A DNA stretch of 20,765 bases from a virus: the IMG/VR virus record IMGVR_UViG_3300028612_001679, positions 1-20,765 of that record. The stretch is one strand, 5' to 3'. Below, piece by piece: positions 1 through 20,002 of the stretch (positions are counted from its first letter, which is position 1; each line of letters begins with the position of its first letter). Below the pieces are notes generated by a model that searched no databases, was not told the origin of the DNA, and worked only from the letters and a program-made list of their open reading frames with translations. A program made the position numbers and the translations under genes.

Positions 1-120
1 TACGCTACACGGAGTGCGATTGAAGCAGCAGTTTATGCGATAATCACACAAGGCATTGAAGATAATCTGTGGGACTATGAACCACAGCAGGAGGTGTCTG
101 ATGCAAGCACAACTAATTAA
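1..120 (+). CDS. csgG: CsgG-like curli secretion channel, C-terminal end (partial)
   Basis: Only the last 39 codons are in the window; frame 1 is open from base 1 to the TAA at 118-120. The residues SAIEAAVYAIITQGIEDNLW followed by D line up with the C-terminal helix of E. coli CsgG (SAIETGVIFLINDGIDRGLW followed by D), which I recall from the family. CsgG forms the outer-membrane pore that exports curli subunits. The stop lies 20 bases inside the next gene, a curlin-repeat protein, which strongly supports the call by context. The tail after the LWD is shorter than in E. coli. Almost all of the protein, including the lipoprotein signal and the barrel, is outside the window, so whether the gene is intact cannot be judged. 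Confidence 0.8.
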   Translation, partial: YATRSAIEAAVYAIITQGIEDNLWDYEPQQEVSDASTTN

Positions 121-817
121 ATATTCTCTAGTTTACCTCGTTTTTCTGTATTCGTTGGCTTATACGGTATCCGCTTCTGGAGCTAATAATTCTATATACA
201 TTACTCAGAGTGGTGGGTCGTCGGCCCTGACAATGAATTTAGACCAGATCGGAAACTCAAACGTAATAGGAACAAGTAACGCAAGAGTATCCTTAACAGG
301 AACTAGCATGACGATTGATATTGATCAAATTGGAGACTCAAATATCATTGCGGCCACAATCGCTCAAGGGAACAGTAGTTCCTTTACTCTGAGAAGTACC
401 GGGGACTCCAATACTCAAACGATTACAACTGGAGGGACCGGGGATACTCAGGGAAGTGATTTTGACTTTGCCGCTGTCGGAGACTCAAATGTGTTGACAT
501 ACACAGCGGGAGCAGCAGCGACAGCCACATCCGGAAACACCGACATCGTTATTACCGGTACGTCTAACAATCTCAATTTGGTCACTGAGGTAGTCGGTGC
601 AACCAATAACTGGGACGTAGACGGTGATTCCAACGATATTGACACTCTACAAACTGGGAACGCAAATCATTCCATCACGGCAGATATCACGGGCAATACA
701 AACAACATTGATATAGATCAAACCAATGTAAGTGGCAGCACCTCCGGCATAGTCGATATTATTGCCATTACGAGCGGCGGAATTATAGACATCGACCAAT
801 GTTCAAGTGGTTGCTGA
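101..817 (+). CDS. secreted curlin-repeat (CsgA/CsgB-like) amyloid protein 1
   Basis: Start chosen at ATG 101 because AGGAGG at 89-94 sits six bases upstream; in-frame ATGs at 56 and 77 lack this and would put extra residues before the signal peptide. The 238-residue product begins with a hydrophobic signal peptide (cleavage probably near residue 24, after TVSA). The rest is low-complexity, rich in N, T, S, G, D and I, with about ten units built around G-D/N/T-S/A/T-N, such as LDQIGNSNVIG, IDQIGDSNIIA and VDGDSNDID, the strand-turn-strand pattern of curlin repeats. The Gln and Asn ladder is clear in the first units and at the end (DIDQ) and weaker in the middle, so the fibre core may be divergent. 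It ends in a short Cys-x3-Cys motif. It overlaps the csgG-like gene upstream and the fecR-like gene downstream, so it is very likely exported by that CsgG. Confidence 0.82.
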   Translation: MQAQLIKYSLVYLVFLYSLAYTVSASGANNSIYITQSGGSSALTMNLDQIGNSNVIGTSNARVSLTGTSMTIDIDQIGDSNIIAATIAQGNSSSFTLRSTGDSNTQTITTGGTGDTQGSDFDFAAVGDSNVLTYTAGAAATATSGNTDIVITGTSNNLNLVTEVVGATNNWDVDGDSNDIDTLQTGNANHSITADITGNTNNIDIDQTNVSGSTSGIVDIIAITSGGIIDIDQCSSGC

Positions 818-1881
818 TATTTCTGCCGCTTGTAGCGCAGGCACAAATTGGCTCTATCTCAGAGCTCCGTGGCATTGGTGAAGTTCTACGCCAAGGTTCT
901 GATGATTCTTTAGAGGCTGCATTACAACTAGGTATTGCCAGTATGGATAATGTACGTACTGGCAATGGTCGTTTAGCTATTCAATTTCTTGACAATAGTG
1001 TAGTACGACTAACCGAGCGTTCTAGTGTTGTAATAGACGAATACATTTTTGATCCAGATCCCTCTCAGTCTCGCCTTGCTCTTAATATAGCCTCTGGAAC
1101 TGCCCGGTTTTTGACGGGTGCGCTAGGCCGTATTAATCGTGATCGGATCAGCATAACGACGCCGGTGGCAACGATAGCGATTCGTGGGACGGAGTTCACG
1201 ATAACAGTTGATGAGATAGGTCGTAGTCTAGTTATTCTTCTGCCTGATGAGGATGGGAATTCTAGCGGTGAGATTGTAGTTACTTCTATGGCTGGCGAGG
1301 TTGTAATGAACCAACCGTTTCAAGCCACTATGGTGAGTGTATCGGAAACCCCACCAACTCCCCCTGTTATATTACAAAATATGACCCTTGGATTTATAAA
1401 TAACCTACTGATCGTGAACCCGCCTGATGAAATACAAGAGGCAGTTGATGAACAGGCCAGCAGTCCATCTAACATTTTGGACATTGATCTTTTGGAGGAA
1501 ACTGAGGACGAGAATGAGCTGGATAAAGATGAGTTGCAGGATGAGATTGGGAGGCTCGATATAGATCTTTTGAATGTCGATTTCTTGACCGATCTGCTTG
1601 CGATTATAGAGGTGTCGGCCACTAAGAAAGATGCCAGAGTATCTGAGCTTGATGGGGTTAAGATTGAAGGAATCCTCGCTGGTTTCGATCAGCAGAATCA
1701 GACCTACACGTTCGTCGAGGGAGAGGTACTGACCATCTTCAGAAGCGTTGAGAATACCTTTGATCTCGAGCTTGATAAGAACAGTGCTTACAATATATCA
1801 GTGCTGACTGCTGGAAAGGCTCTGGATATCACGATTAACGGAGGAGGTGAGAATGCCATCTATATTAACCAATCTCCGTAA
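799..1881 (+). CDS. periplasmic FecR-domain protein with curlin-like C-terminal tail
   Basis: A 360-residue protein with a short signal peptide (residues 1-15, ending AQA). Residues about 18-175 form a FecR domain; the core reads ISITTPVATIAIRGTEF at 117-133, typical of FecR. Residues about 210-265 are rich in Asp, Glu and Leu and look like a linker. The last residues (NAIYINQSP) resemble a curlin half-repeat and are close to NSIYITQSG in the upstream curlin protein. FecR domains act in the periplasm as signal receivers or scaffolds, and in bacteria similar proteins often sit beside CHASE2 cyclase genes, as here. The start overlaps the previous gene by 19 bases and has only a weak ribosome binding site, so translation is probably coupled. 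This is not a classical FecR: no cytoplasmic anti-sigma part is present and no sigma factor is nearby. Confidence 0.82.
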   Translation: MFKWLLIFLPLVAQAQIGSISELRGIGEVLRQGSDDSLEAALQLGIASMDNVRTGNGRLAIQFLDNSVVRLTERSSVVIDEYIFDPDPSQSRLALNIASGTARFLTGALGRINRDRISITTPVATIAIRGTEFTITVDEIGRSLVILLPDEDGNSSGEIVVTSMAGEVVMNQPFQATMVSVSETPPTPPVILQNMTLGFINNLLIVNPPDEIQEAVDEQASSPSNILDIDLLEETEDENELDKDELQDEIGRLDIDLLNVDFLTDLLAIIEVSATKKDARVSELDGVKIEGILAGFDQQNQTYTFVEGEVLTIFRSVENTFDLELDKNSAYNISVLTAGKALDITINGGGENAIYINQSP

Positions 1882-2716
1882 AAATGGCCTCCCCAGAAGC
1901 TCTGTAAGGCGACTTCTCTTAGTAGGCAAGGCCTTGGTATACCCTATTTTGGGGGTATTTTTGAATATTTCCATTAGTTGGGCTGCAGACAACTCTGTCG
2001 AGATTGATCTAAAAGGTAATAGCAATGTCTATATTGATCAGATTGGATCGGGGAATGTGTCTCGTGTTTGGTGTGGTCTAAGTAACGGAACCTATGACAC
2101 TCACACTTGTTCCAGCGCCACCATTCGGCTGACTCAGACAGGCGATGATAATCTTGCAAAAGCCTATTCACAGTATACGAATCATCAATCAAATCAATAT
2201 ACGATTACTCAGAATGGATCTTCAAATGTCGGTTACATAGACGCTGACGAGAACGATAACGAAATGACCATCACCCAAACTGGTGATGACAACTACGGTG
2301 AAATCTATATGAGTGGAGATGATAACGTATATACAATTAGCCAGGTGGGCGATCACTACGCTAAATTCTATGCGTTTGGAAGTGACTCAACATGGACAGC
2401 TACTCAATCAGGATCGGGCAATCACAATGCCTATATCAAGAGTTGCTCAAATTGTAACAATAACGATGCCACGATCACTCAATCTGGCTCTGGAAATAAA
2501 GACGGGGATATTGAATTCCGCAACAACCCGTCTGACAACTCAACGGTCAATCTTACGCAATCAGGTGACGGCGCACACGTTGGCAATATTAGAGTGGAAC
2601 AGGGTAATTACACTGTCAACGCAACTCAAACGGGAACGACGGTCAAGAACTATACAGTAGTGTTGGATTGCACCTCGAGCTGTAATAAAACGATTACTGT
2701 TAATCAGTTTGATTAA
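1853..2716 (+). CDS. secreted curlin-repeat (CsgA/CsgB-like) amyloid protein 2
   Basis: Start chosen at ATG 1853: AGGAGG at 1842-1847 is five bases upstream, while the in-frame GTG at 1847 overlaps that site. The 287-residue product has a basic N-terminus of about 22 residues, then a hydrophobic stretch ending ISWA (signal peptide about residues 1-44, long). The mature part has about nine regular curlin units of the form T-Q-x-G-x-x-N (IDQIGSGN, LTQTGDDN, ITQNGSSN, ITQTGDDN, ATQSGSGN, ITQSGSGN and others). This is a closer match to the canonical curlin pattern than protein 1. Several Cys pairs (for example SCSNC and CTSSC) could form disulfides. One of the two curlin proteins may nucleate and the other polymerise, as CsgB and CsgA do, but the sequence does not say which. 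Its stop codon overlaps the cyclase start as TAATG. Confidence 0.85.
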   Translation: MPSILTNLRKNGLPRSSVRRLLLVGKALVYPILGVFLNISISWAADNSVEIDLKGNSNVYIDQIGSGNVSRVWCGLSNGTYDTHTCSSATIRLTQTGDDNLAKAYSQYTNHQSNQYTITQNGSSNVGYIDADENDNEMTITQTGDDNYGEIYMSGDDNVYTISQVGDHYAKFYAFGSDSTWTATQSGSGNHNAYIKSCSNCNNNDATITQSGSGNKDGDIEFRNNPSDNSTVNLTQSGDGAHVGNIRVEQGNYTVNATQTGTTVKNYTVVLDCTSSCNKTITVNQFD

Positions 2717-4491
2717 TGAAAATTGGTACAAAAATAGGGTTGATTACAACAGCCCTTTTTACTCTTCCTCTTCTATTAAACTGGTCAGCTTTAGAGATCC
2801 TTCGTCTCAAAACCTTTGATGCTTTTATTACACAACCTACCCCTTCAGGGCACTTTGTAATACTTGATATTACTGAGGAAGATATAGCTCGTGAGGGAGG
2901 TTGGCCTTTTCCCAGGCATACGTTGGCTTCCCTTCAGGACGAACTTATAGCACAGGGGGCTCTGGGAGTTGGATGGGTAATATTGTTTCCTCAGCCTGAT
3001 CGCTTTGGTGGAGATGAAGCTTTTGCTACAAGTCTTAGCCAGGGCATAAATGTATTAGCAATGTCTGAGTATTCTAATGGTCAATATCCAGAAGTGGATA
3101 GAACCGTTATTCTTGGAGAGGATCCTCTGTATTACACTTCTGCTCCGGGATTCCTTGTAAATGTAGAGCAACTTACTGAATATGCTTTACAAGGAGCGGT
3201 CTCAGCTCCTACGGATGTAGACAATCTTATACGGCAGATACCTCTTATTTCTAGGGTTCCTGATGGTTGGATTGCTTCATTTGCAACTCAAGTATTAAAG
3301 GCCCTTACAGTTACAATCAGTGGCGGAGAAGGAAGTTATCAAATTCGTACAAATAAAGACGGCATCGAAAGTATTAGAATTCCAGCTCTAGGAATAATTC
3401 CTACAGATAGGTTTGGACGGAAGTGGATCTCTTGGGTAGATACTCCCACTACGTCGTATCAAGATCCACAAGTAGAGGGTAAATTTGTCTTCATAGGTAC
3501 AAGCGCTGCAGGTGTAATGCCTCAATTAGCAACACCCGTTGGGCTATTAAATCCACATTATATTCAGGCCGCTTTGGCTGAAAGTCTTTTAATTGCAGAT
3601 AGTCCAAGTATTCCAGGTAATCGTTTGTTATATGAGCTTGGACTTCTTTTATTAGTCTGTACAATTACTATAGCATCTCTGCAGAAGTGTAATGTAACAT
3701 GGTCAGCTGTAACTGTAGGGGGTATGTTACTTGGACTTTATGGTACGGGTAGATATCTTATTGAACAAAATCAATTAGTTGATGTTACTTGGCCTATTAT
3801 TTGTTTGCTATTATTATCTGGAGAGCAGTTCTGGTTTAACTTCCGAGAGCAATATCTTCTGCGTCAACAGATTAAGAAACAGTTTGAACATTATCTGGAT
3901 CCTAGACAGGTTAAGCGTTTACAAGATAATCCTGCATTACTAAATCTGGGAGGTGAGCTCCGTAACTGTACGTACATATTCACTGACTTACGAGGATTCA
4001 CTGCTTTGTCTGAACGAGTGAGCCCTGAAAAAGTTACTGAGATTATGAATAAGACCTTATCTATTCAAGTTGAAGTATTTCAACGCTACGGAGGAATGAT
4101 TGATAAATTTATTGGGGACGCTTGTTTTGCAATTATGGGGAGTCCTTTAGATTTACCAGATCATCCTACTAAGGCAGTTCAAGCTGCTATAGAAGTTCAA
4201 GAACGTATAGAAAAATTAAATGAAAGTATGGAAGAAGATATTGTTATTGGTATAGGGATACAAACAGGTCCGGCTGTTGTAGGAAACATGGGCTCAGATA
4301 CGCGATTCGATTTTAGCGCTATCGGAAATGCCGTCAATGAGGCAGCACGCTATGAATCAGCCACAAAGGAAGTGGGAGTGAATATTTTGATAGGGGAGGA
4401 AACGGCAAATAAATGTCGTATAGATTTAAAATATGTAAAAGATATAATAGTTAAAGGTAAAGAAAAACCTTTAAGAGTTTATACTGTTTAA
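2716..4491 (+). CDS. CHASE2-domain class III adenylate/guanylate cyclase
   Basis: A 591-residue membrane cyclase. There is one membrane helix at about residues 7-24, a large extracytoplasmic CHASE2 sensor domain (about 30-300, with typical VILDITEEDI and REGGWPFPR segments), three more helices at about 304-370, and a cytoplasmic class III cyclase domain from about 412. Metal-binding Asp424 (FTDLRGFT) and Asp468 (KFIGDA), purine-binding Lys464 and Ser534, and transition-state Asn541 and Arg545 are all present, so it should be active. Lys with Ser/Thr at the purine sites is the class IIIb adenylate cyclase type, so cAMP is the more likely product. The start overlaps the curlin stop by one base and has no ribosome binding site, implying coupled translation. 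The 3' part is visibly more AT-rich than the curlin genes and resembles the phage genes that follow. Confidence 0.92.
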   Translation: MKIGTKIGLITTALFTLPLLLNWSALEILRLKTFDAFITQPTPSGHFVILDITEEDIAREGGWPFPRHTLASLQDELIAQGALGVGWVILFPQPDRFGGDEAFATSLSQGINVLAMSEYSNGQYPEVDRTVILGEDPLYYTSAPGFLVNVEQLTEYALQGAVSAPTDVDNLIRQIPLISRVPDGWIASFATQVLKALTVTISGGEGSYQIRTNKDGIESIRIPALGIIPTDRFGRKWISWVDTPTTSYQDPQVEGKFVFIGTSAAGVMPQLATPVGLLNPHYIQAALAESLLIADSPSIPGNRLLYELGLLLLVCTITIASLQKCNVTWSAVTVGGMLLGLYGTGRYLIEQNQLVDVTWPIICLLLLSGEQFWFNFREQYLLRQQIKKQFEHYLDPRQVKRLQDNPALLNLGGELRNCTYIFTDLRGFTALSERVSPEKVTEIMNKTLSIQVEVFQRYGGMIDKFIGDACFAIMGSPLDLPDHPTKAVQAAIEVQERIEKLNESMEEDIVIGIGIQTGPAVVGNMGSDTRFDFSAIGNAVNEAARYESATKEVGVNILIGEETANKCRIDLKYVKDIIVKGKEKPLRVYTV

Positions 4492-6676: not shown

Positions 6677-7090
6677 TTACTTTGACCTGAAATTAATTCT
6701 GGTCAACTCCTTAGGCTTCACTCCAGGGACTTGAAGCCCCATGACTTGAAGTTCTCTATAGGCCGTAGCAGTCATTTTCTTATGAAGTAACTCAAACTGC
6801 TTAGTACGTAAAAGATAATCGTAAACTTGATCCCAATCTTCTACTTTTGGCACAATTTCTTTTCGAATAGATACGGTACATAGATCATTTCCAACTTGTT
6901 CTATACCTTGATCATTCATTTGATTGATGATTTGAGCCTCGAGCTCATTTTTCTCTCTGCTAAATCTAGCTCTTGTATCATCTATAGATTTTATTTCTTT
7001 TCTTGTCTTATTAAGACGGAGCAATAAATCATTTAGTGAGATCTCCTTGTCGAGATCCCGATGTCTAACCATAATGTCTCCAGTTTCCAT
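6677..7090 (-). CDS. coiled-coil phage protein, unknown function
   Basis: A 137-residue protein with a heptad-like charged helix at about residues 18-60 (LNDLLLRLNKTRKEIKSIDD onward), then a compact part with VEDWDQVYDYLLRTKQFELL and a C-terminal VPGVKPKELTRI. The second half resembles small phage proteins encoded beside replication genes whose function I do not know. Its ATG overlaps the helicase stop as TAATG, so the two are translationally coupled and perhaps work together. A second in-frame ATG at codon 7 is an alternative start. Confidence 0.6.
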   Translation of the reverse strand: METGDIMVRHRDLDKEISLNDLLLRLNKTRKEIKSIDDTRARFSREKNELEAQIINQMNDQGIEQVGNDLCTVSIRKEIVPKVEDWDQVYDYLLRTKQFELLHKKMTATAYRELQVMGLQVPGVKPKELTRINFRSK

Positions 7091-8448
7091 TAAGCGGCCT
7101 CCTGACTATATAATTTAGTCAATATATGTAAAAGATTTTCCATTCTTCCTAACTTACCATTTAATTTATCGTAAACTTTCGTTTCCCAAGTATCCTTGGC
7201 GGCAATAAGAATAGTTTCAGTTTTCTTATTTTGTCCTGCTCTATGGATACGTCTATTAAATTGCTGGAAATGTTCAGCATTATAAGTAGGAGAACACCAT
7301 ATACAGGTAGTAGCTTTAGTAAGTGTAAGACCATGGCTTGCAGATTGAGGGTGTGCAAAGAGAACTTGCACCTGACCTGCTTGAAATCGTTGTACAATAC
7401 CTGCACGTTTCTTAGGAGGAACATCTCCGTCTATAACTTCATAAGTTATTTTTTGAGCTTTAGCTAATTTAATTAAAGCATCTCGTTCATGTTTCCAGTT
7501 AAAAGCAACTAGACTATGTTTTCGTACTTTAATTAAATCTATAATTAAGTCATATCTATTTTGATGAAAATAAGTAACTTTACCTTCTTCATCATAAACA
7601 CCACCTGATACAAGTTGTAATAATTTTTTAACTCTAGCTCCTGCGTTTACTGCATTAATAGTTCCTTGTTGTGTATACAGACAGGACTGAGTAGCTAGAA
7701 TTTCATACAAGTTTCTAATCTCTTTAGTGAGAGTTGTATAAACAGTACGAGTAATATTGTCAGGAAGATCAATACAGTCTTCTAATGCATGTCGTATTGT
7801 TATATCACTTAGTAATTGACCTACAGTTTCTTCAATTCCAGGTTTATCTGTCCATTCATTTACAAACCCATTAAATCTGGGAGTACAGACTTGATGTCTA
7901 AAGGCAAAGAAACGTATGCCTAATCGTTTACCGTCATCTACACAAAGAGTAGGATGCCAAAGATCAAGAATAGTATTGGTATTAGGAGTACCAGACATAA
8001 AAATACGACGGTCAAAATTCGAAACAATAGATTTAAGATTCTTTGATCTTCGTGCAGTTCTATTCTTAAAGGCTGTAAATTCATCTACTACTAAAATATT
8101 AAACTTATTCAGAAACTGCTTATTCTTAACAAGGAAATTGACAGCTTCAAAATTTGTAATAACCATGTCAAGTGAATCATCATTAAAAATTTTCTCACGA
8201 TTTTTTGCATAGGCAATATCATATTTAATAGATGGCTGGAACTTAGCTATATCATCTGCCCAGGCTGCTTCAAGTATAGATAAAGGAGCTAAGACTAGAG
8301 TTTTAGCTTTAAGGGCAACATGAGCATCTAATACAGCTCGAGTCTTCCCTGTACCTGGATCTGAAGTAACCAGGCAACGAGGGTGTCTGATAATAAAATC
8401 AGTTGTTTCTATTTGATGGGAATAGAGAGGAAGGACGGAAACATTCAT
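7090..8448 (-). CDS. SNF2-like superfamily 2 DNA helicase/translocase
   Basis: A 452-residue two-domain helicase. Walker A is DPGTGKT (residues 30-36), the DExx box VDEF is at 121-124, motif III SGTP is at 152-155, and motif VI QFNRRIHRAGQ is at 396-406 with its arginine fingers. HRxGQ is characteristic of the SNF2 branch. It lacks accessory domains, as phage versions usually do, and should act as an ATP-driven DNA translocase in replication, recombination or fork repair. ATG 8448 is preceded by ACAGGAG six bases upstream; this leader also resembles a CsrA site (see findings). The downstream coiled-coil gene is coupled to it. Confidence 0.9.
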   Translation of the reverse strand: MNVSVLPLYSHQIETTDFIIRHPRCLVTSDPGTGKTRAVLDAHVALKAKTLVLAPLSILEAAWADDIAKFQPSIKYDIAYAKNREKIFNDDSLDMVITNFEAVNFLVKNKQFLNKFNILVVDEFTAFKNRTARRSKNLKSIVSNFDRRIFMSGTPNTNTILDLWHPTLCVDDGKRLGIRFFAFRHQVCTPRFNGFVNEWTDKPGIEETVGQLLSDITIRHALEDCIDLPDNITRTVYTTLTKEIRNLYEILATQSCLYTQQGTINAVNAGARVKKLLQLVSGGVYDEEGKVTYFHQNRYDLIIDLIKVRKHSLVAFNWKHERDALIKLAKAQKITYEVIDGDVPPKKRAGIVQRFQAGQVQVLFAHPQSASHGLTLTKATTCIWCSPTYNAEHFQQFNRRIHRAGQNKKTETILIAAKDTWETKVYDKLNGKLGRMENLLHILTKLYSQEAA

Positions 8449-8520: not shown

Positions 8521-9270
8521 CTATTTAATTCCATGTTTGCAAGTAGGATTATCACCATTTTTATACGAACACCACTTGCAATTAGATTTGGAAGGAACAG
8601 GCATAAAGTTAGTAGCTGTGGTCATGGTCAGAGCTCGCTGGTGAAGAGTAGGCATGAATACCATAGCTTCATCTCGAGTGTAAGCTTGTAATGTAGTTTT
8701 GCCATGGTCTATATACCATAGCTCGGTCTGGACATGTTGTAACGTGGGATACCTAAGGAATGTACCGATAGCATAAATAAGAGCTTGTTGAGAATGAGTT
8801 ATTTCATTACCAATCATTCGACCTGTTTTATAGTCTATTACACGAGCTGAGGTGGGAGATTCGTGATGTAGAGCATCTAGTTTAATCCGTGCCCAAGTTT
8901 CAGGTACTAACCAACCACAAGGTTCCCAATCAATTGTGAATCCCCATTGCCCTTCGAGTTCAACCTGCTCGAGAGCATACATATCTTGAAGCGTTTCGAA
9001 TTCATATATAAATTTATTAAGTTCTTGTGGTAGTTTTTCTAGTTTACCTTGTACATAGTTTTCAGCTAGCTTATGTATAACACTGCCTCGATTAGCAGCG
9101 GGACCATAATCTTCTGGAATGCGTTTAACTTTAGCTATGTAAGAACGATAGGGACAAGTTTCAAAAACTTTTAAGGTTGAGTAAGACCAAGCTGGTATAA
9201 GACCTAATTGGTCTGGATTACTCTGTATTACATTTTCTATGTCCGGGCGCTTGTCTTGTATAAGCTGCAT
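8521..9270 (-). CDS. PD-(D/E)XK nuclease, RecB/Cas4-like, probably with Fe-S cluster
   Basis: A 249-residue protein with the order of motifs seen in RecB/Cas4-type nucleases: SYSTLKVFETCPYRSYI near residues 29-45 with Cys39, RGSVIHKL with His66, RIKLDAL with Asp132, VIDYKTG with Asp146 and Lys148, QQALIYA (the QxxxY-type motif) at 161-167, and a C-terminal CKWC plus Cys244. Cys39 with Cys231, Cys234 and Cys244 would supply four ligands for an iron-sulfur cluster. It would process DNA ends in phage recombination or replication. No cas1 or cas2 is nearby, so a CRISPR role is not supported. The ribosome binding site is weak. Confidence 0.85.
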   Translation of the reverse strand: MQLIQDKRPDIENVIQSNPDQLGLIPAWSYSTLKVFETCPYRSYIAKVKRIPEDYGPAANRGSVIHKLAENYVQGKLEKLPQELNKFIYEFETLQDMYALEQVELEGQWGFTIDWEPCGWLVPETWARIKLDALHHESPTSARVIDYKTGRMIGNEITHSQQALIYAIGTFLRYPTLQHVQTELWYIDHGKTTLQAYTRDEAMVFMPTLHQRALTMTTATNFMPVPSKSNCKWCSYKNGDNPTCKHGIK

Positions 9271-9293: not shown

Positions 9294-11759
9294 CTACCCA
9301 GTCAAAAGTTGTAAATCGGATTCATCGAAATGTTCTTTCAAGAGGGAGTCTTTTATCTCCTGCTCCAGGATCCATGTAATAAGGACTCCTCTTGGAGCTG
9401 AACGATATTCACCTTCTCCCATTCGTTTTCTGGTTGTTTCTACATTAAGTCTATTCATTACTTTAGAGAAGTCTCGGATCGAAAGAGATTTCTTGTTATC
9501 AGTAAAAACATCGTAAACAACCTTAAAATGCTGCATAGGTATGATTAATTCTTTTTCAGTCGAAGCAATCCAATTCTTAATATAGCGTTGTGCTGTACTT
9601 ATTCCGCCGGCATCGAAGGTATTGGTCAATGGAATATCAAGAACCTCTACAAAATATTCAAGATTATTATGAAGAATAGCTTGAGCAAATTCTTCTAAGA
9701 CGGACATTGAAATGAGTTTCATTCTCTTCTTGGCGTCGTTTTCAAGTGCTGTATGAGCCATACGTTCATTAATCTGGAATTTTTGTAATAACCCTGCAAA
9801 GGCATATAACTCTGTTTCTAACTTATCGAGATTTGTAAGTATCTCAGGGAATCCATCTTCGATTCTTTGTTCTTGCCTAGGAGCTACATTGTATCTACGA
9901 TCCCCATCTTCAATCTTGACTGCATCTCCTCGGTTTGTAAGGAAGATGAAGTTACAATAACTAGGGAGTTCTATTTGGTTTGTACGCATAGCACGTATAG
10001 TGAGATTAGGTTCAGTTATCTGATGTTTAAGCTTATCAGCCATCTTTCCTGCGTTACCTGAATCTCCCATTCGAAATTCATCAATAGCTAGAAATAGTGC
10101 TGTACGCATATACAGGTTGAATTGCTCTTCTATATTTTCGAGTGAACGCATTGGTACTTGAGATTCTCCAAATAGATTTTTAAGTACTTTATGAATAAAC
10201 AATCCTTTACCAGTGCCTGGTACACCTGTAAGTATCCAGGCGGTCATGGTTTTACATTTTTTCTGGTATATATAAGCGAGCCAATTAATGAAATGTTCTG
10301 TCTCTGTAACACCATTACCTAAAATATATTTAATCAAATTAAAGGTATTAGGAATGTATTTTACAAATTGGCCTGCTTCTCCATAAGCACATTCCGGTAC
10401 ATCCTGATTAGCATTCAGCATGTAGGAAGTTTTTCTATAGAGATTTACATAATAGGGAGCTGCCTCCATTTGTATACCCTTATCTGAAGAAGGGTTAAAA
10501 ACAACTTGTGCGTCAGGAACAAAATCAGGCATAGGTCGATTATGAGTACGCATAAAACCTTCAAGAGAACTTTTTTGGGTGGGAGTCAAAGGGAAATCAT
10601 CAGTAAACTGTTTCTTTTGTTTATCAAAAATCCCATTGTAAAAAGTATCAGTATAGTAATCTCGAAGGATTACTGGATTGACTTCTTTTCCACCATCAAT
10701 TTTGTCTGAGAATCGTTCAAATATGCTTTTGAAAAACTCTGAATCTGCTTTCTGTATCTCAAATATAGGCTCACCTTTAAAGTTGTACATATAGTGAGGA
10801 TTGCTAAGGATGAAATAATAGGCACCGCTGTCACCTCCGTTAATATTACAATTGACATAGGGTTCACTGATTCTACAAATCTCAATAGTCATTTTATCGG
10901 GGTTCTGTAAGACTTCTTGAGATTCACCTCTAACATTAACTGTAGTTATTCTTTCAGTTTTCTTTGTTAATCCAGCTTTCTTTCTAAGCCCGTCTTTTAT
11001 TTGTATACTTATTCGATATATCTTTTCTGGATTAACATCTTTTATTAAAGGTGCAATGTCCACAGTTGGCGAGCTACGTTTAATTACTACAAATCGTTCG
11101 CCTGCTATAGGGTTTTGTAAACCAATAAATATAGGAGGAGCTATGTAAACTAATCTAGAATTTTCTGCTAAGCTAACATCTAAAGGATAAACAATACTTT
11201 GTCCATTAGCAGATAGATTTAATTGATTAGCTAAGAAATCTATTTCATAATTTAGAGTTCGTAACCATTCTTTTAGTACTCTAGGAGGAATAGGATCTTT
11301 AAGAAGAAAAAATAAATGCATTGAAACTTTTTTACCATCTAGTCCAAGAGAAGCGCTAGCTTGTGCTATATAACTAACGTTTTGGAACTCAGGAGGTAGG
11401 TAAGTTACAAATTGTTCTGCAATACTTTGTATATCAAATTCATTTAAAATTGATTTAGCAGAAATAGGAAATTCTACTCCGTCTAGATCAAGAACTAAAA
11501 GTTCTGTTTGTGCAGCACGATCACTCATTCTTGCACGAGATTCGTTTTTTAATTTTCTTTTTAAAGTACCTTTAAGAAGAGCTGCGCCTTGAGTAGCATA
11601 TTTAGTTAAGAGTTCATAAAATTGATCAAATCCTTCAGATGTTTTATCAATTTTGTAATGATGGGAAGTGAATTTTTTAACTAGAGGGTAAGGTCTCTTA
11701 CCTTCTAGTGAGATCTGTTTTACTAGCCGTTGTTTAGCCTTAAGGAAGATAACTTCCAT
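9294..11759 (-). CDS. primase-helicase (AEP-like N-terminus, SF3/VirE-type ATPase)
   Basis: An 821-residue replication protein. The N-terminal part has LLVLDLDG with Asp91 and Asp93 and SMHLFF with His148, matching the catalytic pattern of archaeo-eukaryotic primases. The central to C-terminal part is an SF3-like helicase: Walker A GVPGTGKG (residues 512-519, Lys518), Walker B LFLAIDEF (Asp560, Glu561) and sensor FLTNR with Asn609. It would unwind and prime DNA for the family A polymerase encoded two genes upstream. The ATG lies 24 bases after the csrA-like stop with GAGGAG seven bases before it. The length is usual for fused phage primase-helicases. Confidence 0.88.
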   Translation of the reverse strand: MEVIFLKAKQRLVKQISLEGKRPYPLVKKFTSHHYKIDKTSEGFDQFYELLTKYATQGAALLKGTLKRKLKNESRARMSDRAAQTELLVLDLDGVEFPISAKSILNEFDIQSIAEQFVTYLPPEFQNVSYIAQASASLGLDGKKVSMHLFFLLKDPIPPRVLKEWLRTLNYEIDFLANQLNLSANGQSIVYPLDVSLAENSRLVYIAPPIFIGLQNPIAGERFVVIKRSSPTVDIAPLIKDVNPEKIYRISIQIKDGLRKKAGLTKKTERITTVNVRGESQEVLQNPDKMTIEICRISEPYVNCNINGGDSGAYYFILSNPHYMYNFKGEPIFEIQKADSEFFKSIFERFSDKIDGGKEVNPVILRDYYTDTFYNGIFDKQKKQFTDDFPLTPTQKSSLEGFMRTHNRPMPDFVPDAQVVFNPSSDKGIQMEAAPYYVNLYRKTSYMLNANQDVPECAYGEAGQFVKYIPNTFNLIKYILGNGVTETEHFINWLAYIYQKKCKTMTAWILTGVPGTGKGLFIHKVLKNLFGESQVPMRSLENIEEQFNLYMRTALFLAIDEFRMGDSGNAGKMADKLKHQITEPNLTIRAMRTNQIELPSYCNFIFLTNRGDAVKIEDGDRRYNVAPRQEQRIEDGFPEILTNLDKLETELYAFAGLLQKFQINERMAHTALENDAKKRMKLISMSVLEEFAQAILHNNLEYFVEVLDIPLTNTFDAGGISTAQRYIKNWIASTEKELIIPMQHFKVVYDVFTDNKKSLSIRDFSKVMNRLNVETTRKRMGEGEYRSAPRGVLITWILEQEIKDSLLKEHFDESDLQLLTG

Positions 11760-11783: not shown

Positions 11784-11957
11784 TTATCCCTTATAGACTT
11801 CTTCTCGGTCTATTTTTAAGTCTGACTCCGCCTCAAAAGCCAATTTTACTTGTTTAGATCCTACTCCTATTACAACTATTTTGCACAAAATTTCGCCTGT
11901 CTTTTTATATAGAATAATAGCTTCTTCCTTCTTACGTGTAAGTATTAAAGTGCCCAT
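11784..11957 (-). CDS. csrA: CsrA/RsmA-like translational regulator (57 residues)
   Basis: A 57-residue product. It begins MGTLILTRKKEEAI, matching the CsrA N-terminus (MLILTRRxGE), and continues with VVIGVGSKQVKLAFEA and IDREEVYKG, matching the conserved GxQVRIGxxAP and HREEIY parts. Arg8 and Arg51 correspond to the two RNA-contacting arginines of CsrA (R6 and R44), both kept. It stops right after the last strand, so the C-terminal helix is nearly absent. The length is otherwise typical of a CsrA monomer, which works as a swapped dimer binding GGA in RNA hairpin loops. The ATG overlaps the polymerase stop as TAATG, so it is made from the replication transcript by coupling. Confidence 0.9.
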   Translation of the reverse strand: MGTLILTRKKEEAIILYKKTGEILCKIVVIGVGSKQVKLAFEAESDLKIDREEVYKG

Positions 11958-13762
11958 TATTTGTCATAAATTTTACTAAAATTACCTTCAACATCTAGAG
12001 GTAGTTTTTCACACCAAGAAGGAGGAACTTTCATTATTTGTATAATTCGATCTAAGATCTCAACTGCTTTGTTTTGTGGACCTGAACAAATAATCTCATC
12101 ATGCACAGTAAGTACAACATCTACTTCAGGAATTCTGGATTGTATGTTTAATATTTGATCAGTAATCACAATTCTGGACAAAGCTTGAATTATATTTTCA
12201 CAGACTCGAGGACCATGTGTTCGAATAGGCCCCTTGTTGAAGTTAGAGATATATAAAAATTCTCCGTTGACATATCTCAAATGAGGATATTTTAAGAACA
12301 TACCATTAGGCAATGCTATGGCATTGTTACTTACTTTTAATGGGCCATACTTATTTCCATATTGAGCTCTATTTATCATGCCATATAAAAATTGTTTACA
12401 AACATTCCATAATCTAGGAATGTTGGGATACATAGCTCGATATTGAGACACAATTTTCAAAGCTGTTTCTTTAGATACATCTACAGATGGCGATCCATTT
12501 TTAAGTGTATCTTTGTAACGATCTACTCCCATTCCATATCCAAGACCTAAGATAGCTGTTTTACCTACATATCGCTCGAGCTTATTTTTTTTGTTTATAG
12601 GTCTCCCATAAATTTGAGAAGCAAATTCGCTATATACATCAGTCCCGGAGATGAAGCTTTGTAACAAGGTTTCTTCATTAGCTAACCAGGCAAGCATCCT
12701 GGCTTCAATATTAGCTAAATCTGTTATATAAAGAAAATGATTTCGAGGAGCTTTAATTGCACTACGCAGTACAGATCCCCGTGGAAGGTTTTGTAAGTTA
12801 ATCTTCTCAGAGCCCCCGAATCGGCCGGTATGAGCTGCGTAGTATCTGAGTGGAACTGAGAAAGTGCCATCAGAATTTACAGACGATAACATGCGTTCAG
12901 CTCGTGTCTCTTCAATTCTGCTTTTTACTGCTTCTCGGCCTTCCCATATGTGGTTGTATTTAGAGTGCAGGTTCGTCATCTGAATGTAAGCTGAATCATT
13001 TTTACTGAAAGCTGGAATAATCTTTCCTGTTCTAAGGCTTCTTTTTGTTGGTACAGTGATACCTAGGGATTCGATGTATGCAGCAAACTTGGGTTGAGAT
13101 GCCAAAATTTCTCTGGTAGTTCCGCTGTCTTTAATTTTTTGTGCTGTTTCCCGAGCTATTTGTTCTTTGTGTGTGATTAAAAGTTCACGGTCTAAGACCA
13201 ATTTAGGTTCAACAAACATACGCACAGTTAGGTTAATAAGATCAAGTTCGCTTTTAGGGTAAGCAGGCACCATTTTATTAAATATTGCATAGGTAAGATC
13301 TACATCCTGTATACAATACCTAGCTATTATTTTTTCTATCTCGGGATTTAGGTAACGTGTGCCTTTGGCATTAACGAGTTCTTCACCTTTTCGCATACTT
13401 TTATTATCTGGGAATAGACGTTCACATACATTTTTCAGAGATGCTGATTCATTGGGATATAAGCCCCGACTCATAGCAGCTGTATCGTAGTAAAAAGCTG
13501 GATATACATTGTAGATCTGGGTCAGGATGTAGGCATCAAATAAAGCGTTATGGCATACAAGTGCGGTCTCGTCCCAGGGGATTTGTAAGAAGATATTTTC
13601 TATTTCTTGAGGAGAGATCCATTCTGTGGGTTCATCTTCCCATTTTACACCTACTCCCCAGACAAGGAATTCATCAGATTGTACATATTCTACGGTAGAC
13701 ATTTTGGTTAAAGAATAACCGACATCGTAGAATGTTTCGAAATCCAAGAATAATTTATTCAT
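11957..13762 (-). CDS. polA: family A DNA polymerase with 3'-5' exonuclease domain
   Basis: A 601-residue replicative polymerase. The proofreading domain has all three motifs: DFET at 7-10, CHNALFD at 70-76 and YCIQD at 149-153. Polymerase motif A is DLANIEARMLAWL (Asp348, Glu353), motif B is RxxxK with Arg397 and Lys401, and motif C is VHDE with His554, Asp555 and Glu556. The position equal to E. coli Phe762 is Leu405. There is no 5'-3' exonuclease domain, as usual for phage enzymes. It overlaps the small gene upstream by eight bases and csrA downstream by one. It would copy the phage genome together with the primase-helicase and helicase here. Confidence 0.95.
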   Translation of the reverse strand: MNKLFLDFETFYDVGYSLTKMSTVEYVQSDEFLVWGVGVKWEDEPTEWISPQEIENIFLQIPWDETALVCHNALFDAYILTQIYNVYPAFYYDTAAMSRGLYPNESASLKNVCERLFPDNKSMRKGEELVNAKGTRYLNPEIEKIIARYCIQDVDLTYAIFNKMVPAYPKSELDLINLTVRMFVEPKLVLDRELLITHKEQIARETAQKIKDSGTTREILASQPKFAAYIESLGITVPTKRSLRTGKIIPAFSKNDSAYIQMTNLHSKYNHIWEGREAVKSRIEETRAERMLSSVNSDGTFSVPLRYYAAHTGRFGGSEKINLQNLPRGSVLRSAIKAPRNHFLYITDLANIEARMLAWLANEETLLQSFISGTDVYSEFASQIYGRPINKKNKLERYVGKTAILGLGYGMGVDRYKDTLKNGSPSVDVSKETALKIVSQYRAMYPNIPRLWNVCKQFLYGMINRAQYGNKYGPLKVSNNAIALPNGMFLKYPHLRYVNGEFLYISNFNKGPIRTHGPRVCENIIQALSRIVITDQILNIQSRIPEVDVVLTVHDEIICSGPQNKAVEILDRIIQIMKVPPSWCEKLPLDVEGNFSKIYDK

Positions 13763-13958
13763 TTTTAGACTTTTCAGTGAGCTCCAACCAATGTTCGTAC
13801 TGCTTCTTGCTGGCTCGTTCCCAACCTACTTGCAGGCCATTGACCATATTAAAAGCAGTGCCCATTGGCACATGTCTATATTGAGTATAAGAAATATCTT
13901 GGTCAGAATAGGAATACGGATGTTTCCAATTTTTTCTGACGTATACGTAGGTAGCCAT
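13755..13958 (-). CDS. small phage protein, unknown function
   Basis: A 67-residue protein rich in Tyr, Trp, Lys and His, with no motif I recognise. Its ATG at 13958 has AAGGAG at good spacing, and its stop overlaps the polymerase start, so it opens the replication transcript. No membrane helix or zinc motif is seen. Confidence 0.6.
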   Translation of the reverse strand: MATYVYVRKNWKHPYSYSDQDISYTQYRHVPMGTAFNMVNGLQVGWERASKKQYEHWLELTEKSKNE

Positions 13959-13978
13959 AAATACTCCTTATTTAAGGC

Positions 13979-14006
13979 TTGACATTTGCAGGAAAGGCTT
14001 TATGTT
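13979..14006 (+). promoter_or_regulatory. sigma70-like promoter for the plus-strand virion-type gene
   Basis: TTGACA at 13979-13984 is a perfect -35 box; TATGTT at 14001-14006, 16 bases later, is a fair -10 box. It reads into the gene at 14072. The divergent replication genes must also be driven from this 113-base gap, but I see no convincing minus-strand boxes. An AAGGCTT repeat occurs on both sides of the -35 box. Confidence 0.55.
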
Positions 14007-14071
14007 CCAAGTAGGATAGCACAAAATGCTAAGTGCAATTTCTTCTTAATTTTCAATGGAATAGGTGATAT

Positions 14072-14548
14072 ATGGCTACAATCGCAACTCTACGTAAAAG
14101 TGGGAATGTAACTAGTAATTCCGCTTTTAAGGGGTTCCCAGATGGAATGATGTTTATACGTAAAGCTACCATTTCCACGGGGACATTGGTCGTAAACGAC
14201 GTTTATCAGGCATTGAACGTGTATGCAGGGGAAACTTTGCATGGTGTACGGGTACTTTCTACAGATATTGATAGTGGGGGTTCTCCGGCAATTGTTCTGG
14301 ATGTTGGTTATGGAAACAGTGATACCGCTACTGCTTCAACTTCGGACGATCTCATTGATGGTTCAACTATAGGGCAGGCTGGGGGTTCAGCTGTAGCAAA
14401 TGCTTTGAGCTCAGATGACGACGCTGGTACTACCTTTGCCGACGGTCCATTGGACTTTTCAGCAGATGATACTATTGATATACATGTGCAAGTTGCGCCA
14501 GCGACTACTGCAGATGGTACACTTACAATCTGGGGTTACTTTAGTTAG
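14072..14548 (+). CDS. putative virion structural/decoration protein
   Basis: A 158-residue acidic protein, rich in Thr, Ser, Gly, Ala and Asp with alternating hydrophobic residues, suggesting an all-beta fold. Segments such as FPDGMMFIRKATIS, VNDVYQALNVYAG and IVLDVGYGNSDTATAS resemble small structural proteins of marine tailed phages. It has no signal peptide. It is a lone plus-strand gene between two minus-strand blocks, with its own promoter before it and a strong terminator after it. The ribosome binding site is AGGTGA just before the ATG. Assignment to head decoration rather than tail is a guess. Confidence 0.6.
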   Translation: MATIATLRKSGNVTSNSAFKGFPDGMMFIRKATISTGTLVVNDVYQALNVYAGETLHGVRVLSTDIDSGGSPAIVLDVGYGNSDTATASTSDDLIDGSTIGQAGGSAVANALSSDDDAGTTFADGPLDFSADDTIDIHVQVAPATTADGTLTIWGYFS

Positions 14549-15595: not shown

Positions 15596-15919
15596 TTATT
15601 TCCTCCCCCAATCAGGTTCTACTTCGACCCATTGAACTTTAGGTCCTGAAAAATCAGCTTTGAGAACTCGGTACTTTTTTCTTTGCACGGTTAATTTTTC
15701 ATGCTTCATGGTTTTTCTCATAAGGAACAAAGTTATTGATGCAACCATACCGCCGACCATAGCTGCAGCCATGCCACTGAAAGTACCATAGAAGCAAACC
15801 ATTAAAGTAATGGTTATAAGAATGTCTACAAAGATATCATTACCAATTGTCTTACGGCCTCCGATTTTAAGCGCTAGCAAAAGCAGCCCTAATGCGCTGA
15901 ATATTCCTATTAGTAACAC
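15596..15919 (-). CDS. small multi-span membrane protein
   Basis: A 107-residue protein starting at GTG 15919 with AAGGAG upstream. Hydrophobic segments at about residues 2-20, 30-47 and 49-67 suggest three membrane helices, followed by a basic and then mixed cytoplasmic tail ending VEVEPDWGRK. Small proteins of this kind are common in phage genomes; the function is unknown. Confidence 0.6.
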   Translation of the reverse strand: MLLIGIFSALGLLLLALKIGGRKTIGNDIFVDILITITLMVCFYGTFSGMAAAMVGGMVASITLFLMRKTMKHEKLTVQRKKYRVLKADFSGPKVQWVEVEPDWGRK

Positions 15920-16022
15920 TGTGTCTCTCCTTCCACATTAGATAGGCCAAGTATGCGAATTGAATAGCTTCGATTAAAATCCATAGTGCAGTTGTTGCTG
16001 CAGATATAATAGTAGGACTCAT
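15867..16022 (-). CDS. small one-helix membrane protein (51 residues)
   Basis: The 51-residue product begins MSPTIISAATTALWILIEA, with one hydrophobic helix at about residues 5-29 and a basic tail. GGAG lies six bases before ATG 16022, and the ATG overlaps the previous stop as ATGA. Its 3' end overlaps the next gene by 53 bases. The ribosome binding site and neighbours argue that it is real; function is unknown. Confidence 0.6.
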   Translation of the reverse strand: MSPTIISAATTALWILIEAIQFAYLAYLMWKERHSVTNRNIQRIRAAFASA

Positions 16023-16186
16023 GTTTTACTCCATAAAAAATAGATACCAACAGAAATAAGAAATAGAATTGAAGTTATAGTTATTAGATGATGTAGAGTG
16101 GATGAAATACCTAATGCAATAAGAATTGCACTAGCACCTGCTAAAACTGAAGCTTTTAGTTTAGTTAATTTTAATGACTTGCCCAT
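16019..16186 (-). CDS. small two-helix membrane protein (55 residues)
   Basis: A 55-residue product with a basic N-terminus (MGKSLKLTKLKAS) and two hydrophobic segments at about residues 13-28 and 34-52. AGGAGG sits six bases before ATG 16186, inside the 3' end of the VWA gene, which it overlaps by 26 bases. The topology would suit a holin-like or envelope protein, but nothing proves it. Confidence 0.6.
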   Translation of the reverse strand: MGKSLKLTKLKASVLAGASAILIALGISSTLHHLITITSILFLISVGIYFLWSKT

Positions 16187-18054: not shown

Positions 18055-19071
18055 CTATAAAATGTCATGGGAAGAATCTGTAATCCATTTACGGACTGCA
18101 GGATGTGAAATCATCATTTTGTCATATTGAATGGCTAACTTCATACCTATTACTTGGTACTCGGTATCCATTTTCTTTATGACTTTTACAATGTTATCCA
18201 TTTTCTTTTCGCTAGATTGAGAAGCCAGAGCCCCTGCAAGAGCAATGTTTACAGCCACATTATCCTGAGGCTTGTAAGTTTGCGGATTAGCGATTAATGC
18301 ATCGACATCAGGCAAATCTTTATGGATTACCCTGAATGCGATGTACTCTCCAGCGGCTCCGTCACCAACCAAGGCTGAGACGCCATAATAGAGAGTTTCC
18401 TCATTGACATTAGCTAACTTTAATCGTTTATCTACGAAAGCCCAGCTACGAGGAGTCGGAAATGCATAGCTTTCGGGATTAAAGTTGTATAGCAAACCAG
18501 GCTTAAATCTCAAAAATGATATTAAGGACTGATCAATGCCGTTTCGGATAGCCCAGCTGCACCAATCATCCAGATTGGGCTCGAGCTCATAGTGCGCTAA
18601 CCTGTTTCTCACAGGGGATGGCATTTGGTATACAGCTGCAAAATCAGTTAATCTGTTACCTGCAGCTATGATTGACCACCCTTCTGGTAGTTCATAATCT
18701 CCTACTTTACGGGTGAGCAATAATTGAAGAAATGCGTTTTGGGTTGCGGGAGGAGCAGTAGGTAATTCATCAATAAAGAATAAACCTTCTGCACCATCTC
18801 TTTCCACAATAGGAAAGACATCAGGTACGGCCCATCGAGTAAATCGTTTACCTATGGCTTTCTGTAACATTACATAAGGTATTCCTCTAACATCTACAGG
18901 ATCAAAAAGATTAGCCCTGAAATCTAGAAGTTTCATATTAAGCTTTTGAGTTACTTCAAGCGGGATATCAGATTTACCTATGCCTGGGCCCCCCCATATC
19001 ATGGTGTTGAGTCCAGCTTTCATATTATCTAAGATTTCTGATAATAAATGCTTAGGTCTAATAGAATGCAT
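18055..19071 (-). CDS. MoxR-family AAA+ ATPase
   Basis: A 338-residue ATPase from ATG 19071, chosen because GAGGAGC precedes it at good spacing; the open frame extends 32 codons further without another ribosome binding site. Motifs are Walker A GGPGIGKS (27-34), Walker B FFIDEL (Asp101, Glu102), sensor 1 AAGNR (Asn139) and the PVRNR arginine pair at 155/157. The ATPase part matches MoxR proteins that remodel targets together with VWA partners, here the gene at 16161. The C-terminal part is helical. Confidence 0.85.
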   Translation of the reverse strand: MHSIRPKHLLSEILDNMKAGLNTMIWGGPGIGKSDIPLEVTQKLNMKLLDFRANLFDPVDVRGIPYVMLQKAIGKRFTRWAVPDVFPIVERDGAEGLFFIDELPTAPPATQNAFLQLLLTRKVGDYELPEGWSIIAAGNRLTDFAAVYQMPSPVRNRLAHYELEPNLDDWCSWAIRNGIDQSLISFLRFKPGLLYNFNPESYAFPTPRSWAFVDKRLKLANVNEETLYYGVSALVGDGAAGEYIAFRVIHKDLPDVDALIANPQTYKPQDNVAVNIALAGALASQSSEKKMDNIVKVIKKMDTEYQVIGMKLAIQYDKMMISHPAVRKWITDSSHDIL

Positions 19072-19156
19072 AACAGCTCCTCGATTTAGCAATTTGTATT
19101 TATTACGTAAAATTAACCCCATAGTTATAAATTTAAAAGGGCAAAAACCCAACTGG

Positions 19157-19507
19157 CTAGTAAACATCTCCTGACTTTATTTCTTTAATTAGCAGGAGTT
19201 TATCTAGCAGAACAAAAATGTCATCTCCACTGAGGTTGCTCCACTTAGAGCCAACGTCCAGTCCGTCAGGCACACGGCCCAATAGCCTGGCACATTCTTT
19301 GAAGGCTTCTATGTGCTTTGGTTTATAAGGGGCATAAGGAGAGAATTCCAGGTAGTGAACTTCTCCATACTGATCAGTAAGCGTATGCCATCGTTTTGAA
19401 TTTTCAATCTCACCATCGGCACCGTACTCAGGATCATCCCAAGTCTCGTACTTTGTAAGTATAAGTGGCTCAGTGGACTGTTTTCTCTTCCTGTTCGGCA
19501 CCGTCAT
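19157..19507 (-). CDS. small phage protein, unknown function
   Basis: A 116-residue protein if started at ATG 19507, which follows GAGGGA; the frame is open to 19561 and ATG 19522 is another choice. It is basic at the N-terminus (NRKRKQ), then Trp/Tyr-rich (YLEFSPYAPYKPK), then helical (DDIFVLLDKLLLI). I do not recognise it. It overlaps the previous gene by about 38 bases. Confidence 0.5.
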   Translation of the reverse strand: MTVPNRKRKQSTEPLILTKYETWDDPEYGADGEIENSKRWHTLTDQYGEVHYLEFSPYAPYKPKHIEAFKECARLLGRVPDGLDVGSKWSNLSGDDIFVLLDKLLLIKEIKSGDVY

Positions 19508-19751
19508 CACAAATTCCCTCATCTTCTTCCTCTGAGTAATGAATATGAATTTTGGTAGCATTCATTAATATCTCCATGGCCTCAGTTGAATTTATTTGGT
19601 AGTGAAAAAGGATATAGGAGAATAAATAAGCAAGGTCATGGGAATAAATGGAATTCATATTCTTTTCCATATATTCCATAAGACCAGTGACTTGTTCTTT
19701 TGTCACTTCTAAACTTGAGTCTAATAGGTTTGGTATTTTTGCTTCAGACAT
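19470..19751 (-). CDS. small helical phage protein, unknown function
   Basis: A 93-residue protein, mostly helical, with an acidic C-terminus (SEEEDEGICDD). No motif recognised. AAGGAG lies before ATG 19751, and the gap to the upstream gene is two bases, indicating one transcript. Confidence 0.55.
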   Translation of the reverse strand: MSEAKIPNLLDSSLEVTKEQVTGLMEYMEKNMNSIYSHDLAYLFSYILFHYQINSTEAMEILMNATKIHIHYSEEEDEGICDDGAEQEEKTVH

Positions 19752-19753
19752 AT

Positions 19754-20002
19754 TTACTCCTTGAATACCCCTGGTATTTCTATTGGCTCTATGTCTCGTA
19801 TTTTAATGGTGCCCATATTAAAAGCATGTAAAAGAGCATGAATAGCCCATTGCTGGTAATCTATATCAGAATCAACTGGAAAAGGGGCTTTAAACTCAAA
19901 CACTATAGTTCGATCAGGAGTTTCTGCATCCATAAGAGTGGCACGGAACCATCGTAATCCAGAACTTTCAGCATTTTCGCCTATAATTTTTTGGGAAGCC
20001 AC
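19754..20002 (-). CDS. small phage protein, unknown function
   Basis: An 82-residue protein. The frame opens at GTG 20020, but AAGGAG lies inside those first codons, six bases before a second GTG at 20002, so I place the start there (MASQKIIGENAESS). No motif recognised. It is the first gene after a strong terminator, with only about 36 bases between them. Confidence 0.55.
   Translation of the reverse strand: MASQKIIGENAESSGLRWFRATLMDAETPDRTIVFEFKAPFPVDSDIDYQQWAIHALLHAFNMGTIKIRDIEPIEIPGVFKE

Follow-up and report, generated by a model that had tools for sequence, protein, structure and literature searches.

The window analyzed here is a whole record, a linear virus contig of 20,765 bases, and it carries at positions 11784-11957 of the minus strand a 57-aa ORF with an ATG start, csrA, predicted to encode a CsrA-family RNA-binding regulator. 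Directly upstream of csrA lies a gene for a family A DNA polymerase with a 3'-5' exonuclease domain (11957-13762, minus strand; PF00476 at 7.5e-29, PF01612 at 6.6e-8), and directly downstream lies a gene for a DUF5906/VapE-like primase-helicase (9294-11759, minus strand; PF19263 at 9.1e-19, phrog_24712 at 3e-159), which bears out the placement between polymerase and primase-helicase made in a first-pass annotation of this DNA. The first gene of the operon is gp13755, a 67-aa ORF (13755-13958, minus strand) that overlaps the polymerase start and keeps the same position across the clade, giving the order gp13755-pol-csrA-primase; genes for a PD-(D/E)XK exonuclease (8521-9270, minus strand; PF12705 at 3.1e-19) and an SNF2-type helicase (7090-8448, minus strand; PF00176 at 3.1e-16) belong to the same operon. 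gp13755 is divergent from an ORF at 14072, and the 113-bp intergenic region between them (13959-14071) is the leader of the replication operon. In the window, the polymerase TAA stop and the csrA ATG share one nucleotide (TAATG), and the pol-csrA junctions of relatives are ATGA at 35 loci, TAATG at 13, and abutting at 7, together two-thirds of scored junctions. A gap of 140-190 nt is found at some 18 loci, so the coupling of csrA to the polymerase, which the first-pass annotation had also put forward, holds as the usual but not the universal arrangement.

The 57-aa ORF is a true CsrA-family protein. It had been called a 57-residue CsrA homologue by eye, with a profile search against the CsrA family suggested as a check, and that search matches Pfam PF02599 with E=2e-11 and 44.1 bits (cut-off 27), aligning residues 4-56 to positions 2-49 of the 53-position profile; PHROG 9500, 'CsrA-like regulator', matches at 1.3e-10. 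The NCBIfam csrA equivalog models match below their cut-offs (NF002469, 39.4 versus 73 bits; TIGR00202, 34.2 versus 70.1), which places the phage protein within the family but not among canonical bacterial CsrA proteins. An AlphaFold2 monomer model built with 19 phage homologues has a mean pLDDT of 94.9 and the CsrA monomer fold of strands and a short C-terminal helix. Its best 15 Foldseek matches in the PDB are all CsrA/RsmA/RsmE chains, the highest TM score being 0.83, to 1vpz. PDB sequences searched with a profile likewise gave CsrA-family chains only. Residues 1-12 of the model are assigned no strand, as would be expected if strand 1 pairs with a partner subunit.

The residues that contact RNA in CsrA are present in the window protein as L6, T7, and R8 in beta1 (compare L4/T5/R6) and R51. 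By alignment, R8 corresponds to R6 and R51 to R44 of E. coli CsrA, and both arginines, whose presence had initially been noted for this single sequence, are invariant in all 69 distinct phage CsrA sequences. Across 69 loci with distinct primases, invariance holds for R8, L39, A43, I49, D50, R51, and E53. With bacterial CsrA/RsmA/RsmE (PF02599) the phage proteins share the fold, the LxLTR strand, the invariant arginine equivalent to R44, and, judging from their leaders, probably also the logic of a GGA hairpin at the Shine-Dalgarno sequence (SD). They differ from E. coli CsrA in having an invariant IDR in place of HR (D50 for H43), and from bacterial CsrA generally in having a KQVKLAF core and no AP motif. 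They also lack the C-terminal helix extension and tail of the bacterial proteins, since they stop within a few residues of a conserved EEIY.

The csrA-bearing clade consists mostly of metagenome-derived phages. In a csrA-profile scan of IMG/VR, from which 80 loci were kept, all 80 lie in viral contigs beside the same replication genes, with csrA directly upstream of the primase and, wherever the contig extends that far, downstream of the polymerase. A scan with a primase profile gave 81 loci (80 viral and one in a metagenome-assembled genome, or MAG), many of them on contigs common to both scans, and csrA precedes the primase in 77 of the 77 with at least 300 bases of upstream sequence; none is without csrA. 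Across 69 loci, distances between csrA sequences correlate with those between polymerases and between primases (Mantel rho 0.27 and 0.37, respectively; 0/999 permutations), as expected if a short, fast-changing protein had been inherited jointly with them. In these phages csrA is no stray acquisition. An annotated outgroup phage with distant relatives of the polymerase and primase, phiA008, has another small ORF and no csrA between them, and a tblastn search of the window csrA against 50,697 annotated phage records found no match at E<=0.01.

The leader of the operon contains a candidate CsrA operator, the hairpin TAAATA-AGGAG-TATTTA at 13958-13974 on the minus strand. The gp13755 SD lies in its loop, its 3' arm takes in the start codon's first base, and the predicted MFE fold includes it. 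We extracted gp13755 leaders from 121 loci, 57 of them unique, and in nearly all 57 the GGA of the SD sits in a small hairpin loop just ahead of the gene's start codon. A few relatives have the GGA at the start codon itself instead of in an SD. The hairpin takes several forms, among them AAATA-AGGAG-TATTT, AATTA-AGGAG-TAATT, AATTA-ACGGAG-TAATT, AGTT-AGGAG-AACT, and ATT-ATGGAG-AAT, and from lineage to lineage the arms vary in a compensatory way, as AATA/TATT, AATTA/TAATT, AGTT/AACT, or ATT/AAT, or as AGTC/GACT where the loop is slightly larger.

Covariation was tested on 30 unique 21-base SD cores in one fixed ungapped register against 500 column shuffles. Paired cells make up 76.7% of the total versus 63.9% in the shuffles, double-changed paired cells number 21 versus 10.9, and covariation scores 0.313 versus 0.137, with all slid registers lower; none of the 500 shuffles reached any of these three values, a figure that overstates significance because column shuffles keep the relatedness of the sequences. 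The other two of the five measures, pairs changed on both sides and further pair types, are at or below the shuffles. A covariance model built on the full leader had zero base pairs, MAFFT having shifted the two hairpins, and it was replaced by this ungapped SD-core alignment. The mean stem of gp13755 leaders is 5.9 bp versus 2.9 bp with shuffled flanks, while the next-best of 16 gene families exceeds its own shuffles by 0.9. Because the stems are short and A+T-rich, any one sequence is weak evidence when taken alone: the per-sequence probability that shuffling yields a stem at least as long has a median of about 0.1, and the fold energy of the window leader (z -1.1) is no evidence by itself. 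As a set, the leaders appear to share a conserved GGA-loop hairpin over the gp13755 SD, backed by compensatory changes in which relatedness is only partly controlled.

Several relatives have a second, upstream hairpin away from the SD, also with a loop GGA (GCATTT-AGGAA-AAATGT, GACAAAA-AGGAG-TTTTGTC); this loop GGA is absent from the window leader. A two-site GGA pattern is familiar from bacterial CsrA targets. The upstream hairpin element itself, at 13975-14030 on the minus strand of the window and in relatives, is conserved; it lies within the divergent intergenic region between conserved flanks (CATAAAG...GTCAA) and could be a CsrA site, a promoter, or an operator.

Hairpins of this kind, with at least four Watson-Crick pairs around an SD GGA, also recur elsewhere in these genomes. 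Counting unique leaders, we found them in 117 of 925 from the clade versus 38.6 expected, an excess for which binomial P values are too small because they assume independence and the phages are related. With the detected gp13755 family removed the count is 102 of 894 versus 36.7 expected (about 2.8-fold), a set in which unclustered gp13755 members may remain. Six control phages (HTVC008M, KPP25, T4, KVP40, SPO1, and phiA008), classed as csrA-free from the annotation of the stretches used, show 6 of 221 versus 6.6 expected. Within the clade, the ratio for GGA inside genes is about 1.2 and for internal AGGAG about 1.1, versus 2.8 and 4.2 at SDs. The next recurrent gene with such a hairpin is a DUF3310-like gene (46 leaders, 10 distinct hairpins). 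The Vibrio phage VvAW1, which also bears a csrA, has zero SD-GGA hairpins in the stretch tested. In the window, the further candidate TTTTA-TGGAG-TAAAA before the ORF at 15867-16022 (hairpin at 16024-16038, minus strand) is weak, is unenriched across that gene family, and is possibly due to chance, and an operator before gp5973, suggested by a first MFE-based test, was not supported by a stricter stem test. Among the curli genes, too few leaders were usable for finding conserved CsrA sites, and none was convincing.

We think it probable that the phage CsrA is an autogenous translational brake on the phage's own early and replication mRNAs, including those of its own operon, a reading in which we infer CsrA-RNA binding, repression, and timing from sequence patterns. 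CsrA would be made from the early/replication operon through coupling to the polymerase, and the C-terminally short protein, as the subunit of a dimer, would target the phage's own messages. As it accumulates, it would bind the loop GGA of the SD hairpin that precedes gp13755 and keep ribosomes off that SD at the head of the operon. Through the coupled starts the repression would then spread, reducing gp13755, polymerase, and CsrA levels and possibly those of the primase. A few other genes whose SD GGA lies in a hairpin may be secondary targets, among them the DUF3310-like gene and, in relatives, the family of the gene at 6677-7090. The first-pass annotation had offered two roles, rewiring of host translation or timing of the phage's own genes. 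The operon slot kept at 77 of 77 loci, the covarying SD hairpin, and the SD-GGA excess relative to control phages favor the timing half of that suggestion, and none of these results shows the protein acting on host genes for biofilm or carbon metabolism.

Other roles for the protein or the hairpins have to be weighed against this brake. The hairpins could be purely cis-acting, exposing the SD for efficient initiation or responding to temperature, with CsrA acting elsewhere. A loop GGA is demanded by the SD itself, some of the stems are weak, and an SD placed in a loop can aid initiation, so this has a real if minor chance of being correct. Against it stand the lack of any excess in control phages that have GGA-type SDs and the second loop GGA that several relatives have in a hairpin away from the SD. 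The palindromes might alternatively be DNA operators of a phage transcription factor, given that the gp13755 leader is palindromic and lies within a 113-bp divergent intergenic region. Yet the half-sites vary by lineage (AATA, AATTA, GTT, AGTC) while the pairing and the GGA loop stay constant, and operons have similar palindromes at their internal SDs, which makes a DNA operator quite improbable.

If instead the protein acts on the host, supplementing or mimicking host CsrA/RsmA and altering the translation of genes for metabolism, surface structures, or CRISPR-Cas, there is precedent: RsmA represses cas genes, RsmA homologues occur in phages, and phage and host CsrA are correlated (Campa et al., 2021; PMC8450108). 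The conserved RNA-contact arginines suggest that host GGA sites could be bound. One would hardly expect a host-acting moron, however, to hold the same replication-operon slot at 77 of 77 loci, or to be accompanied by matching hairpins in the phage's own leaders. The only match in a cellular genome, a 60.8-kb contig in one Marinimicrobia (Fidelibacterota) MAG, also argues against this role, since the phage gene is that MAG's only CsrA, and 3 of 39 other genomes of its family have one; the MAG link rests on contig binning alone, which is weak evidence, and we claim no host. Overall, we regard host rewiring as unlikely. A virion-carried or structural role has been proposed for the CsrA of the Lessievirus JC1, a Burkholderia phage with one CsrA peptide detected in its virions (PMC9144972). 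Such a role is hard to credit here: the JC1 gene lies between portal-region and capsid genes, whereas this one is in a replication operon on the strand opposite the late genes of a sister contig.

CsrA-family genes on phages are already published, including RsmM of P. aeruginosa phages, Lessievirus CsrA, those of the Vibrio phages VvAW1 and vB_VneS_J26 (PMC12038007), and those of jumbo Xanthomonas and Erwinia phages. A survey of csrA on phages and plasmids covered 30 phages (PMC7366521), many phage csrA genes are in GenBank and IMG/VR (PMC8450108), and one was reported in phage JC1 (PMC9144972). Their contexts differ from the window's replication operon where we compared them, csrA lying between exonuclease and HNH genes in VvAW1 and near portal and capsid genes in JC1 (PMC9144972). 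In the accessible portions of the reports on these earlier examples, conserved leader operators are undescribed, and in the open-access literature we found no description of a clade-wide core replication-operon csrA or of phage CsrA operators. What is new is a core replication-operon CsrA with candidate operators of its own. Phage-borne CsrA has so far been read mainly as an anti-host tool (CRISPR-Cas repression, metabolism).

The closest functional parallels may be in T4. RegA is likewise a small RNA-binding protein (for the phage CsrA, a predicted one) encoded in a replication cluster beside the DNA polymerase gene, regA lying between genes 62 and 43, and it acts at the translation initiation regions of early and replication mRNAs, as we propose for the phage CsrA; about 30 mRNAs are repressed by RegA at initiation regions (PMC3014915). 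The folds are unrelated, RegA being absent among the family matches of the phage CsrA and among its listed fold matches, and RegA prefers unstructured A+U-rich sites, in contrast to the GGA hairpin loops that are candidate sites here. The proposed likeness is one of function and not of homology: an overall job like that of RegA would be done with a CsrA fold and the CsrA recognition rule. T4 gp43, the DNA polymerase, offers a further parallel, since its translation is under autogenous control at a leader hairpin, as we propose for the polymerase here, with the difference that gp43 itself binds, whereas we propose a separate co-encoded protein. Whether this phage lineage has made CsrA into a core replication-operon repressor with its own SD-hairpin regulon, an independently evolved functional counterpart of T4 RegA, seems to us an evenly balanced question. 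If so, a bacterial global regulator has been turned into a viral early-gene brake, a second and unrelated solution to the job RegA does in T4. The candidate leader RNA sites are specific ones, open to in vitro tests that need no cultured host.

The start of the window carries a curli module on the plus strand (56-4491), comprising curlin-repeat proteins (56-817 and 1847-2716), FecR (799-1881), and a CHASE2-guanylate/adenylate cyclase (2716-4491), to which sister contigs L186-L188 add CsgF and CsgG. These first 4.5 kb were considered as possible host DNA, which is ruled out because relatives have curlin, FecR, and cyclase genes next to the same phage genes, together with CsgF and CsgG; an equivalent module in HTVC008M also argues against it. 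The marine methylophage Melnitz reportedly has csgGF without csgA/B (PMC9004378), whereas annotated HTVC008M (gp14-19) and this clade also have curlin-repeat proteins and a cyclase. On L164, the Marinimicrobia-MAG contig, an ORF at 18605-19768 between the FecR and cyclase genes is predicted, by eye, to encode a DNA cytosine methyltransferase-like protein. The ORF at 14072-14548, conserved and divergent from gp13755 in nearly all relatives, is a lone plus-strand ORF amid minus-strand early genes and has no PHROG or NCBIfam match. In one sublineage (L070, L071, L073, L080, L081, and L084), small genes homologous to those at 15596-16022 of the window now sit between the exonuclease and SNF2 helicase genes.
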